Below are positions 40,851 through 45,064 of a DNA stretch of 50,806 bases, piece by piece. The notes beneath the pieces were generated by a model, which saw only the letters and a list, made by a program, of their open reading frames with translations, was not told the DNA's origin and made no database searches. Source of the DNA: Draconibacterium orientale (GTDB lineage: Bacteria > Bacteroidota > Bacteroidia > Bacteroidales > UBA12170); contig DYSN01000013.1 of NCBI GenBank assembly GCA_020718205.1, positions 1 through 50,806 of the forward strand. The letters run 5' to 3'. The translations under genes and the position numbers were made by a program. Numbering within the stretch: position 1 is the first letter of the stretch; each line of letters starts with the position of its first letter.

Positions 40851-43800
40851 TTAGGCCGGTTTCGGTTCATTAAAATGAATCATTGCAATTCGTTTTTTGC
40901 CATCCATCTTTATGATGAGTGGACTTTTGAACTGAATATGCCGGAAATAGCGGGTTTCTTCCACAATTTTTTGTTTTCCCAGGAGATCCCAGTTTATCAT
41001 ATTTGTCGAAAGCTCCTGTTGAACACTCAAATAGCCCACATCGGCCGAAGTTACATTGTGAAAGAAATGCGAGCCGCTGGATGCTTCGAGCGGGAAATTA
41101 ACCAAGCTGGTTTCTACTATTACCTTAGCATGGCTAATATGTGGCCATTGAACCGGTATACCAATCCACGGGTCGCGGGTGCCCCAACGGCCTGGGCCAA
41201 TGAGTACGTAATGCTTATCGAGCTTTTTAAATTTGTTGTTGAGCGCATCAATTTCTTTCACCATCTCTCTGGTTTCCGATTTGTCGAAAGTCTCCGGATT
41301 AACATAAACCACATCCGAAACATGATTGATAATTCCATTCCCCAGTCCGTTTTCTGTGTAGAGAACCATGTTTTTTTCGTCTTCCTGATTAAGATCGATA
41401 TTATAATCATCGGTATTTCCGACAATGGGTTTAATTTGAAGGATGTAGAGGCTGCTTTTATAATTGTCGTCGCGGTTTAAATCGAGCGCAAATTCGATTT
41501 CTACCGGACTTCCAATGGCTTCACGGCCAATTTGCAGGATTACGTCGATGGCTTTGGCCAAAGGAACGTAGTTGTATTTAAGGATATTGGCAAAGTTAAC
41601 AATTCTGGGGCCTGGAATATTCAGGCTTGGAACCAGTCGGTTGTTGTTTTGGTCGAAAACGCTGGCCATATGTTTTAGGGAGCCATTTTTTTCGGCCTCG
41701 GAAATGGGCAGGCGGATAAGACCTTCTTCATCACCCAGAAGCAAGTTCAATTCGCGCTCTTTCAAATTTACAGCAAAGAAATCAGACTGGCTGTTTTTGA
41801 ACAAGTCTTTGGTGCTGTAGTTTTCCAAATCGGGGTATTTGGGCGAAAACCTATAACTTCGTTCCCCATCAACCACTGTTTTGCCCAAACCCACTGCAAT
41901 ATTGGCAAATCCTTCTTCGGGTTTCATATAGGCCACCGGGTAATAATTATAGCTTTGAGCCACACCACTCAGGTGGGGATAGAAATAGTCGCCAAATTGA
42001 TTTCCAACCACTTCCTGAATAATTACGGCCATTTTTTCTTCGTCGATGCGGTAATTTACAGCTTCCACATAGCCCCGGGCCACATCGCTGTAAACCGAAG
42101 CATAAACCATTTTTATTGCATCGGTGAGTTGCTGAAGTCGGGTTTCGTTGTTGGAATGGTTATTCGGAAGAATGTAGGTGTCGAAAATGCCCGCAAATGG
42201 TTGCATAAGGCTGTCTTCGAACAATCCGCTGGACCGAACAGCAATGGCTTTTGTGGTTTCTTGAAGGATGAGCCGGAGTTTCTCGACCAATGCCGGAGTA
42301 AGGTCGCATTTGATGAATATCTGTCTGATTCGGTCGTAGTCGTGAATGAGTTTGAGTTTGGTGTGGAGATTATTTTGCTCCAGAAAAATTTCATACTCAT
42401 CGGTTCCAATGAGGTAAGTGACCGGATTGCAGATATTTATATCGTCGAGAATTTGCTTAAAGTCGAAATTATGAATCAAACTGTTTATAAAAGCCAAACC
42501 ACGGCCTTTTCCACCCAACGACCCATCGGAAAGTTTTACGATATTATAAATATTGCCAATATTGTTGGTTGCGAAGGGAACTATTTTGCCACGGGTTTGT
42601 TCATTTCTAAATCGTTGCATCACCTCTATCAGGTACTTGCGCAATTCTTTGCTGTCTTTGAAATCGGTAACCCGCGAAGGGTTTATTATTCGTGAAACCT
42701 GAATTTCGCCCCTTGCCATGAGCCAAAGACTAAAGTGGTTTTTGGTAGCATGATAAAAAATACTCTCATCGGGAATGGTGGCCAAATGGTCTTCGAACTC
42801 GCGCAGGGTGCGTGCCACCGCAATTTTCCGACCATTTTTATCACGATATATAAAGTCGCCAAACCCCAGATAATGGATAATGAAGTTCTTGAGATCGAGG
42901 AGAAGGCTCTCGGAGTTTTTGTCGATAAAACTGGCCTGAAGCAAATAAGCCTCACTCATATTTTCCTTTTGCGACGATTGAATGATGGTGGGCAAATCGT
43001 CGATTTGTTTGCGCACATATTTCACCAGATTCACTCCGGCTCTATCGTCGAGCTGCCCATTTTTGAAAAATTTGACATCGGTTATCAGGCAAAGCATGTA
43101 CTCTTTATAGTTGTTGAAAATCTCCACCGCATCTTCGTAATTATCGGTGTGAATTATCTTGGGGCGGGCGCGCAATCTCAAAACTTTATAAAGCTCGTCG
43201 GTGCTCACATCGTCAATAATCCGGCGGGTTTGCTCCATCACAATTTTATAGAGCATGGGCAGGTATCTGCTGTAGTATTTGGGCGAATCTTCCACCAGAA
43301 GAATGACGCGGGTCATGCCTTTTTGGGTATCGTTTTGCAGGTTAATTTTATCTTCTACCATTTTAATCATGGCAAAAAATACCTGCGAATGTCCGTTCCA
43401 AACAAAAATATTGTCGAATGTTTTTGGTAGATTTCCTCTATAGAAAGCGGCATCGCGGTTGTTGTGAAGCAGCAGAAACAAAGGCAGGAACGGGAAAATG
43501 CTTTTTATATTTTCGCTCAATCGGGTGGGGCCGGTTTTGTCGGTGCCCATCATGATAATCACCAAATCGTAATTCTTTTTCTGGAGCTCTTCAAGCGCAT
43601 CTTTTTCTGAAGAAACCCCTGTAATACGTGGTATGCTCGTGAGATTCAATGAGCTGTATTCCCCCAGAACATATTCGCTGAACCGACCTTCTTTTTCTAT
43701 GCTATAGGCATCGTAAAGATTGGCCACCAAAAGAATTTCTTTTACCTTGTAGGGCATTAAATCGTGATAAATATCGCGGGCGAAATTGTTCTTATTGATG

Positions 43801-44318
43801 AAACGCTGCAGGAGCTGTCGGCTGAGAACTTTATCCTGAGGCAGGTTATTGTCCTTAATGGGCAAGCTGTTGTCGGAATCGGATTCTGTTTTACGCAACC
43901 GGGCTTCAATTCCATTGATATACCCAGTGAGCTTGGTCGAAATAATTCCTATCAGATTAACTTCCTCCCGGCAAAACGGGCCTTCGAAATCGTCGAGAAA
44001 TTCCCGGGTATAATAAACTTCCAGGTATCCGTGTTTACCTCGCAATGTGGTAAATCGCTTTTGCAACCTCCAGCTGGTTTTTTGAAAGTCGCGACTGTCA
44101 TAGTCTTCACCATCAAAATGGATTCGGGCCACCGCAAATTCGGGGTATTGCCAGAATTGTGGAATGAGAGAGGCTACCTGGCTGAAAGAATCGGACAAAG
44201 ATTTATTTTCTTTGAGTATGCCCACAAGTTGATTAATACAGGAGAGCTCTTTCAGCTGTTTAAAGGATTTGCTTTCGTGAGGGAAACTCATTTTGCCGTA
44301 GGAAAGGTTGTTTGTCAT
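40851..44318 (-). CDS. Receiver-bearing PEP/pyruvate-binding (PPDK_N ATP-grasp) protein
   Basis: A 1155-residue soluble protein. Order of parts: GAF-like segment (about 25-140), degenerate receiver-like segment (about 193-320, no acceptor Asp), a complete-looking receiver (about 336-485; Glu343-Asp344, acceptor Asp414 in CLITDVKFF, Lys467), then an ATP-grasp PPDK_N domain (about 595-960) with SLGGKGRGLAF (600-610) and AIAVRSSGLFEDS (691-703) corresponding to the PEP-synthase ATP-binding motifs. The end (about 1000-1155, VLIGPGRWGTRDPWIGIPVQ) is a family-specific domain. The phosphohistidine swivel domain (TSH-type motif) and the PEP-binding TIM barrel of PEP synthase are missing, so it should not make PEP by the normal reaction. 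Annotation as PEP synthase would be misleading; function unknown. Divergent from the LuxR-type regulator. Confidence 0.85.
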   Translation of the reverse strand: MTNNLSYGKMSFPHESKSFKQLKELSCINQLVGILKENKSLSDSFSQVASLIPQFWQYPEFAVARIHFDGEDYDSRDFQKTSWRLQKRFTTLRGKHGYLEVYYTREFLDDFEGPFCREEVNLIGIISTKLTGYINGIEARLRKTESDSDNSLPIKDNNLPQDKVLSRQLLQRFINKNNFARDIYHDLMPYKVKEILLVANLYDAYSIEKEGRFSEYVLGEYSSLNLTSIPRITGVSSEKDALEELQKKNYDLVIIMMGTDKTGPTRLSENIKSIFPFLPLFLLLHNNRDAAFYRGNLPKTFDNIFVWNGHSQVFFAMIKMVEDKINLQNDTQKGMTRVILLVEDSPKYYSRYLPMLYKIVMEQTRRIIDDVSTDELYKVLRLRARPKIIHTDNYEDAVEIFNNYKEYMLCLITDVKFFKNGQLDDRAGVNLVKYVRKQIDDLPTIIQSSQKENMSEAYLLQASFIDKNSESLLLDLKNFIIHYLGFGDFIYRDKNGRKIAVARTLREFEDHLATIPDESIFYHATKNHFSLWLMARGEIQVSRIINPSRVTDFKDSKELRKYLIEVMQRFRNEQTRGKIVPFATNNIGNIYNIVKLSDGSLGGKGRGLAFINSLIHNFDFKQILDDINICNPVTYLIGTDEYEIFLEQNNLHTKLKLIHDYDRIRQIFIKCDLTPALVEKLRLILQETTKAIAVRSSGLFEDSLMQPFAGIFDTYILPNNHSNNETRLQQLTDAIKMVYASVYSDVARGYVEAVNYRIDEEKMAVIIQEVVGNQFGDYFYPHLSGVAQSYNYYPVAYMKPEEGFANIAVGLGKTVVDGERSYRFSPKYPDLENYSTKDLFKNSQSDFFAVNLKERELNLLLGDEEGLIRLPISEAEKNGSLKHMASVFDQNNNRLVPSLNIPGPRIVNFANILKYNYVPLAKAIDVILQIGREAIGSPVEIEFALDLNRDDNYKSSLYILQIKPIVGNTDDYNIDLNQEDEKNMVLYTENGLGNGIINHVSDVVYVNPETFDKSETREMVKEIDALNNKFKKLDKHYVLIGPGRWGTRDPWIGIPVQWPHISHAKVIVETSLVNFPLEASSGSHFFHNVTSADVGYLSVQQELSTNMINWDLLGKQKIVEETRYFRHIQFKSPLIIKMDGKKRIAMIHFNEPKPA

Positions 44319-44378
44319 AAATGGTTTTAGGGTTGAGTCTAAGAGTTTACGAATTTATGAAAACTAAACGAAAAGTTT

Positions 44379-44386
44379 TATCTTTG
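44379..44386 (+). promoter_or_regulatory. -7 box of the LuxR-type regulator gene
   Basis: TATCTTTG followed by CCCC is an exact TAnnTTTG match, with TATG (44356-44359) 19 bases upstream as a weak -33 box. It lies downstream of the ATGs at 44321 and 44357, so those cannot be the start of translation from this promoter. Confidence 0.5.
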
Positions 44387-44410
44387 CCCCGTATTTTTAA
44401 AGAATTGGCT

Positions 44411-45064
44411 TTGATAAGAGTAGTTATAAAAGATAGCAATAAAATTGTTTGTGAAAGTATTAAATCATTACTTTCCAATGTTAACGACATTGAAATTACT
44501 GACTTTTATAATACCGCCGAGGAGTTAACAAGACGTGTGAGGCTTTCTCAACCCAATGTTATTATCTACAATTCCTATTTATCCAATGCCGATGATGTTG
44601 CGGAGATTAAGAAAATTACCAACGACTATAGCAAAGCCCGTTTACTTGTGCTCTCGCTCAACACCCGCGAATCGTTCATTCTTAAGTCGATAAAAGCCGG
44701 AGCCAAAGGCTTTTTAACCAAAGATACCACCCGTCAGGAATTGGTAGAAGCCATATACACGCTTCGGAGTGGGTATGATTATTATGGTAAAGCCATTACC
44801 AATATTCTGTTAAATAGCTACCTGCGAAAAGCTGCCGACAGCGATAGCCCACTCGATCAACAGCTTAGTGTTCTATCGGACAGGGAGTTGGAAGTGCTCA
44901 AACTCTTCTCAGAAAGTTTTACCAATGCCGAAATTGCCGATAAACTTTTTATCAGCATCAGGACTGTGGAAAGTCACAAAAACAATATCATGCGCAAAAT
45001 AAACCTTCGCACCACTGTGGATTTGGTGAAATTTGCCATAAAAAACAACATCACCGAAGTATAA
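44411..45064 (+). CDS. LuxR/NarL-type response regulator with degenerate receiver
   Basis: I start this at TTG 44411 (reads MIRVVIKDSNKIVCESIKSL), giving 217 residues, the usual NarL size; earlier ATGs at 44321 and 44357 add a non-homologous N-terminus and precede the promoter box. The receiver lacks its phosphoacceptor: the aspartate position is Asn54 (NVIIYNSYL), and the acidic pair reads KDS, though Ser82 and Lys104 remain. The C-terminal LuxR helix-turn-helix is intact (LSDRELEVLKLFSESFTNAE, IADKLFISIRTVESHKNNIM). It should bind DNA independently of phosphorylation. The divergent partner encodes a large protein with a proper receiver, hinting at a joint signalling role. Confidence 0.87.
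   Translation: MIRVVIKDSNKIVCESIKSLLSNVNDIEITDFYNTAEELTRRVRLSQPNVIIYNSYLSNADDVAEIKKITNDYSKARLLVLSLNTRESFILKSIKAGAKGFLTKDTTRQELVEAIYTLRSGYDYYGKAITNILLNSYLRKAADSDSPLDQQLSVLSDRELEVLKLFSESFTNAEIADKLFISIRTVESHKNNIMRKINLRTTVDLVKFAIKNNITEV

Follow-up and report, generated by a model that had tools for sequence, protein, structure and literature searches.

We report the analysis of a 50,806-nucleotide stretch of DNA from Draconibacterium orientale (contig DYSN01000013.1; this whole stretch is called the window below), in which a minus-strand open reading frame (ORF) at positions 40851–44318, gene P0001, encodes a product of 1155 amino acids. The gene belongs to a family of receiver-gated ATP-grasp proteins linked to glutamate dehydrogenase (GDH) and is not a phosphoenolpyruvate (PEP) synthase. 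GDH is a main door for ammonia into or out of glutamate in the Bacteroidota, gut species included, and the title of Baggio and Morrison (1996), as it stands in the reference list of PMC4539542, indicates that how its activity is switched in these bacteria is an old question. The reading we favour, to which we give about as much weight as to all others combined, is that this ATP-grasp protein is gated by its receiver and switches the activity of GDH, probably through covalent modification. A first-pass annotation of the same DNA had described a regulated ATP-dependent enzyme of unknown substrate; an OrfY-like fourth regulatory domain, a division of the family into four types and the GDH linkage go beyond it, and the last of these turns the unknown substrate into a testable question. 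We regard it as certain, from the full-length orthologues found across many families of the order, that the ORF is more than a chance reading.

The catalytic core is a PPDK_N ATP-grasp domain (PF01326) at residues 600–971 (window 41406–42521; all parts of the gene are on the minus strand, and type A residues are numbered as in the window protein), which scores 134 bits against a Pfam cut-off of 27 (E = 8.6e-39). Both motifs on which the first-pass annotation had based this assignment lie in the ORF, SLGGKGRGLAF at about residue 600 and AIAVRSSGLFEDS at about residues 691–703. Rifampin phosphotransferase and PEP synthase provide, in their ATP-grasp domains, the best fold for residues 575–815 in a comparison made with a poor model, the family profile finds PEP synthases and receivers among PDB sequences, and NCBIfam models for PEP synthase and related enzymes match the ATP-grasp part alone, far below their cut-offs. 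In an alignment of 97 family members (35 of type A, to which the window gene belongs, 44 B, 7 C and 11 D), from which broken or cut ATP-grasp genes (L078/L033, for example, and the truncated second ORFs in L025–L028) were excluded, K604, R695, S696, S697, E701, D702, E942 and Q961 are invariant; position 940 is E, replaced by D in type D, and position 963 is K in type A and R in types B to D, save for one B, which has K. These residues are presumably equivalent to the conserved residues of pyruvate phosphate dikinase (PPDK).

After the ATP-grasp domain only about 180 residues remain, and neither the swivel domain (PF00391) nor the PEP barrel (PF02896) is matched by Pfam in the window protein, as the first-pass annotation had claimed. 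This stretch holds instead a distinctive domain (residues ~980–1150; window 40869–41381), again in keeping with that annotation, for which neither the Pfam scan nor a search of PDB sequences with an alignment of the domain gave anything meaningful. Its signature, GRWG...E...S-x-G-[ST]-H-F-F, is kept in 97/97 members: G1041, G1043-R-W-G1046, E1069, S1080, G1082, H1084, F1085 and F1086 are invariant, D1049 is kept in 96/97, and the window protein ends the signature as S1080-x-G-S-H1084-F-F. PPDK_N and the GRWG/HFF domain together, present in all 97, are the defining combination of the proposed family. An AlphaFold model of the C-terminal domain alone had a predicted local distance difference test score (pLDDT) of 38.7, and no fold was assigned. 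The domain occupies the position held by the swivel domain in PEP synthase, and sequence comparison detects no kinship between the two.

Two candidate swivel motifs were considered. ISHAK, at about residues 1061–1065, is not one: its His is H in only 1/35 type A rows, and H is not among the commonest letters at this position in types B to D. The S/T-H-F-F motif, considered as a diverged TSHAA, gave no match by hhalign against 31 swivel sequences (probability 0.2%), a weak test given that the set is narrow and nearly all from PPDKs; the motif is kept as a hypothesis on the working of the domain and not as a sign of swivel membership. Nor was there a separate swivel-domain partner, for which the first-pass annotation had proposed a genome check: in the window genome (99% complete) the sole PF00391 match lies in PPDK, and the 41 related genomes hold no stand-alone swivel protein, since the 36 matches, in 34 of these genomes, all fall in frames of at least 498 amino acids and are nearly all PPDK-like.

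Ahead of the ATP-grasp domain lie a GAF domain, two receivers and the OrfY-like domain. Residues 13–147 find their best fold in the GAF domain 3cit (Z 13.0, root-mean-square deviation (rmsd) 2.9, 126 residues aligned), which places the GAF domain at residues ~15–147 (window 43878–44276). REC1 (residues ~191–330; 43329–43748) is receiver-like and degenerate, lacking the phospho-Asp, whereas REC2 (residues ~336–485; 42864–43313) has the complete receiver pocket, with the acidic pair E343/D344, D414, S448 and K467, D414 being kept in 35/35 type A and 44/44 type B rows. The GAF-like and the two receiver-like parts of the first-pass annotation are all present. Response_reg scores 20.3 bits in the window protein against a cut-off of 30.2, and 35.7 in one type B member. 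The following domain (residues ~486–573; 42600–42863) is DUF5752-like (PF19027), at 21.2 bits against a cut-off of 23 in the Pfam scan and 26.4 bits in a six-frame search with neighbours included; residues 484–573 fit OrfY of Thermoproteus tenax (4cso; Z 11.9, rmsd 2.5, 90 aligned, 24% identity), which phmmer also matches to this domain (E = 0.093). These fold matches come from the usable parts (GAF, OrfY-like domain, part of the ATP-grasp domain) of a full-length AlphaFold model built from four sequences, a shallow alignment; it was poor overall (pLDDT 39) and failed on the catalytic part. DUF5752 corresponds to a solved protein labelled as a transcription factor, which may help its annotation. 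The type A GAF domain is a mobile sensor (L059 3741–4853; L007; L047; L024): it recurs in D-type proteins, a PAS-rich protein and a CRP-like regulator, the last encoded beside a type B gene, and is doubled or tripled in some type A proteins.

The homologues fall into four types. Type A has the window architecture, some members carrying the N-terminal GAF domain two or three times; type B (~1000 amino acids) has no GAF; type C (~580) consists of the ATP-grasp and C-terminal domains and carries no sensors; and type D (~1060) has a GAF domain, a different middle, the ATP-grasp domain and the C-terminal domain. The family was found in 56/60 relatives. With the window protein as query, 43/247 genomes across the phylum gave matches, a few of them to GAF alone, and with type B as query 130/149 genomes of the order did so; type B occurs in 61/71 Bacteroidaceae-like genomes. 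One type B gene (G287; L033/L078) is broken by a single in-frame stop and still adjoins GDH. Thirty viral stretches fitted a pattern, and no relative was among them.

We are highly confident that this family is linked to GDH; we found no paper making that link in open-licence PubMed Central. When ORFs around the family genes were clustered, one neighbour family dominated, at 36/83 loci (some of which overlap); PF00208 and PF02812 identify all three of its scanned members as GDH. Among 60 separate loci, picked by ATP-grasp match alone and without regard to GDH, 30 have GDH, followed by a NarL-type regulator at 8 and another family at 6. By locus content the counts with GDH are 16/34 for B only, 3/3 for A with B, 4/5 for C with D, 4/5 for D only, and 1/1 each for C only, for B, C and D together, and for a broken gene. 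In the order sample the counts are lower bounds, covering only the listed A and B genes on contigs that come to an end: at least 21 of the 42 type A genes listed have GDH upstream and divergent, at 0.7–2.6 kb, and at least two more have it in other arrangements (at least 23/42 within 6 kb), while among the 108 type B genes listed at least 15 have GDH within 1.5 kb and at least 25 within 6 kb, some of these counts taking a GDH that lies beyond an adjacent type A.

The link is closest in a group (f51) that includes Phocaeicola, of the Bacteroidaceae, since type B and GDH of its genome G700 are 99% and 100% identical to those of a Phocaeicola massiliensis record. A 16S primer pattern was matched in 2/393 genomes, and the 16S of G297 is 89.6% identical to that of P. 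massiliensis. In group f51, 24/61 type B genes have GDH within 500 bp and 27/61 within 6 kb, compared with about 0.1 of 61 expected by chance in a hand estimate; eight of the 61 have a second GDH within the same 6 kb, and three are flanked by GDHs on both sides. GDH may stand upstream and divergent, upstream on the same strand, or downstream and convergent to type B. Because the arrangement has been reshuffled and yet the genes stay together, selection appears to act on the pair. Named records give the same picture: in Parabacteroides distasonis NZ_OY725790.1 gdhA is divergent from type B at 0.2 kb, with a second GDH 3.5 kb beyond, and in Phocaeicola massiliensis OY726056.1 a divergent GDH lies 0.2 kb from type B and a second one 4.1 kb away on the other side. 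In a third named record, from Prevotella oral taxon 299, the 20.9-kb stretch fetched holds type B and no GDH. The P. distasonis protein is annotated as 'PEP/pyruvate-binding domain-containing protein', which bears out the first-pass warning of easy confusion with PEP synthase. The P. distasonis and P. massiliensis records (L172 for NZ_OY725790.1, L174 for OY726056.1) are PLSDB 'plasmids' that carry chromosomal genes and look like misfiled chromosome fragments; that of P. distasonis bears two GDHs together with ruvC and the gene for valine--tRNA ligase. A further P. massiliensis 'plasmid', 1875 bases long, consists largely of a 16S gene.

The types also sort by GDH clade. In a quick tree of 88 GDH rows (SH-like approximate likelihood-ratio support only, two long stems flagged; fragments below 340 amino acids, the overlapping loci L030–L040 and identical sequences left out), the partner type switches 6 times over the 68 rows with a partner, and all nine arrangement labels require 23 changes, whereas 200 shuffles average 55.7 and none of them is as low. 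Type A partners form one family-I clade of 32 rows (support 80), of which 20 are divergent, 1 is convergent and 11 have no such gene in the fetched stretch. The downstream GDH partners of type B lie mostly in another clade and its upstream partners in a third, and types C and D partner with family-II GDH, which also includes five GDHs nearest to a B. Across 51 genomes the presence of type A tracks the clade of GDHs at least 70% identical to GDH-b (18/8 versus 2/23; Fisher p = 8e-6).

Within the genus of the window, four genomes (G001, G003, G004 and G006) place type A some 3 kb away from GDH, in the order GDH-b, a 584-amino-acid gene, type A and a divergent NarL-type regulator, with a small extra gene between the second and third in three of them. 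GDH-II, C and D share that contig in G001 and G004 and lie on another in G003, whereas the window, G002 and G009 retain the pair of type A and NarL-type regulator with GDH outside the stretch; seven further genomes of the genus also have the regulator next to type A. In the window this NarL/LuxR-type regulator (PF00072 and PF00196) occupies 44321–45064 on the plus strand, with a likely start at 44357, and the divergent intergenic region that it shares with type A (44319–44356) separates a pair conserved in the same-genus genomes. The 584-amino-acid gene separates GDH-b from type A at L175, L176, L178 and L179, and the same-strand order family-II GDH, C, D, with C and D overlapping by a few bases, is seen at L175 (1042–7281), L176 (211–6435), L177 (1–3601) and L083.

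Linkage and clade-specific pairing together make GDH the family's likely business; the sensors and receiver indicate control, rather than a step in a pathway; and the intact ATP-grasp site indicates ATP chemistry, not mere binding. From linkage, sensors and active site we therefore propose covalent modification of GDH, a proposal on which we are evenly divided. In this mechanism signals would enter through the GAF domain and through phosphorylation of REC2 at D414, and this input would gate the ATP-grasp domain, which would bind ATP and transfer a phosphoryl or larger ATP-derived group. The GRWG/HFF domain, in the place of the swivel domain, may assist the transfer with H1084 as acceptor or catalytic base; the His as a carrier is doubtful. 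The most likely target would be GDH itself, switched on or off, with each type serving its own GDH clade, and the signal is probably nitrogen status. The NarL-type regulator and linked HisKA_3 kinases suggest that a two-component system feeds REC2. At L084, L085 and L089 two GDH/type B units flank a NarL-type regulator and a histidine kinase with PAS and HisKA_3 domains, the kinase being a candidate phosphodonor for REC2. The full combination, a two-component-driven 'GDH kinase' with the S/T-H-F-F His as carrier, duplicated and re-paired for each GDH clade and with type B as the Bacteroides trans-acting factor, is put forward tentatively, as the less probable outcome. Should the pairing be functional, a family so widespread in the order and in Bacteroidaceae-like genomes would gain a testable job, and a swivel-less PPDK-type ATP-grasp protein a protein substrate; the family would then probably control glutamate synthesis or breakdown in Bacteroides-group bacteria.

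Several observations weigh against this proposal. Linkage does not amount to function, and no fusion of GDH with a family protein was seen. None of the 10 A-only loci has GDH in the fetched stretch. GDH is present in 15/19 family-negative genomes of the order sample and in 9/10 B-negative Bacteroidaceae-like genomes, and 5/130 family-positive genomes lack a GDH match. When the GDH-b clade is widened to at least 64% identity the association with type A weakens (21/5/9/16, p = 0.002), and at 70% the window genome is itself among the exceptions: its nearest GDH is 67% identical (C276) with no adjoining family gene, and both of its family-I GDHs are found on other contigs, which lack type A. The empty swivel-profile comparison also counts here, and no structure backs the C-terminal domain as a phospho-carrier.

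Four other explanations were considered. The family could be a metabolic enzyme that clusters with GDH through a common metabolite: a phosphotransferase or ligase that spends ATP on glutamate, 2-oxoglutarate, ammonia or a compound derived from them. PPDK_N has its relatives in metabolic enzymes, namely PEP synthase and rifampin phosphotransferase, and type C is the sensorless pair of domains alone, but type A, with its GAF domain, two receivers and OrfY-like domain, resembles a regulator, and a common metabolite poorly explains pairing with distinct family-I and family-II GDH clades; we regard this as unlikely. The first-pass annotation had left phosphotransferase and ligase side by side, and its regulated ATP-dependent enzyme stands, with nothing found that favours the ligase. 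Rather unlikely, too, is a factor that activates or assembles GDH by means of ATP binding, in a chaperone-like or allosteric manner, and leaves no covalent mark. It would fit the title of Baggio and Morrison (1996) on Bacteroides thetaiotaomicron GDH (reference list of PMC4539542), and in G289 and G297, which likely belong to Bacteroides, type B (3.0 kb) follows immediately after GDH; the full catalytic set in 97/97 members is, however, more than a chaperone needs. That the protein is an ordinary regulator of something else, its closeness to GDH a frozen ancestral gene order, we consider very improbable: the NarL-type regulator accompanies type A just as constantly in the genus of the window, but closeness to GDH survives across orientations and recurs with distant GDH families. 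One half of a split, phenylphosphate-synthase-like dikinase with its swivel-His on another protein is scarcely credible, for although a lone PPDK_N chain is known and was matched both among PDB sequences and in the fold comparison (9goj HpeI, 387 amino acids, which we take to be part of a split system), the PF00391 matches described above leave no such partner.

Returning to the favoured reading of covalent GDH control, the family can be set beside several known systems. With PEP synthase, PPDK and rifampin phosphotransferase it has in common the ATP-grasp fold and catalytic residues, but the window protein lacks the swivel-His and PEP barrel, has another C-terminal domain, and adds the GAF domain, receivers and OrfY-like domain in front. 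With OrfY it has one domain of about 90 residues in common; OrfY is a separate chain of 216 residues, whereas the window copy is one module of a larger protein, with the receivers before it and the ATP-grasp domain after it. GlnE and GlnD exert covalent control of glutamine synthetase as nucleotide-using, sensor-bearing enzymes. The likeness to them is one of working only: a nucleotidyltransferase domain ends 2/4 scanned D proteins, which we count in favour of covalent control, whereas Pfam finds none in the window protein and the proposed target is GDH. The Pol-beta-like end of these D proteins forms a second layer recalling GlnE/GlnD. For B. thetaiotaomicron GdhA, trans-acting gene(s) reportedly lie downstream of gdhA (the 1996 report), and a 3-kb segment supplied in trans is said to have brought back activity in E. 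coli. The gene of about 3 kb beside GDH in Bacteroidaceae would fit such a factor, and type B is on this analogy a candidate for it.

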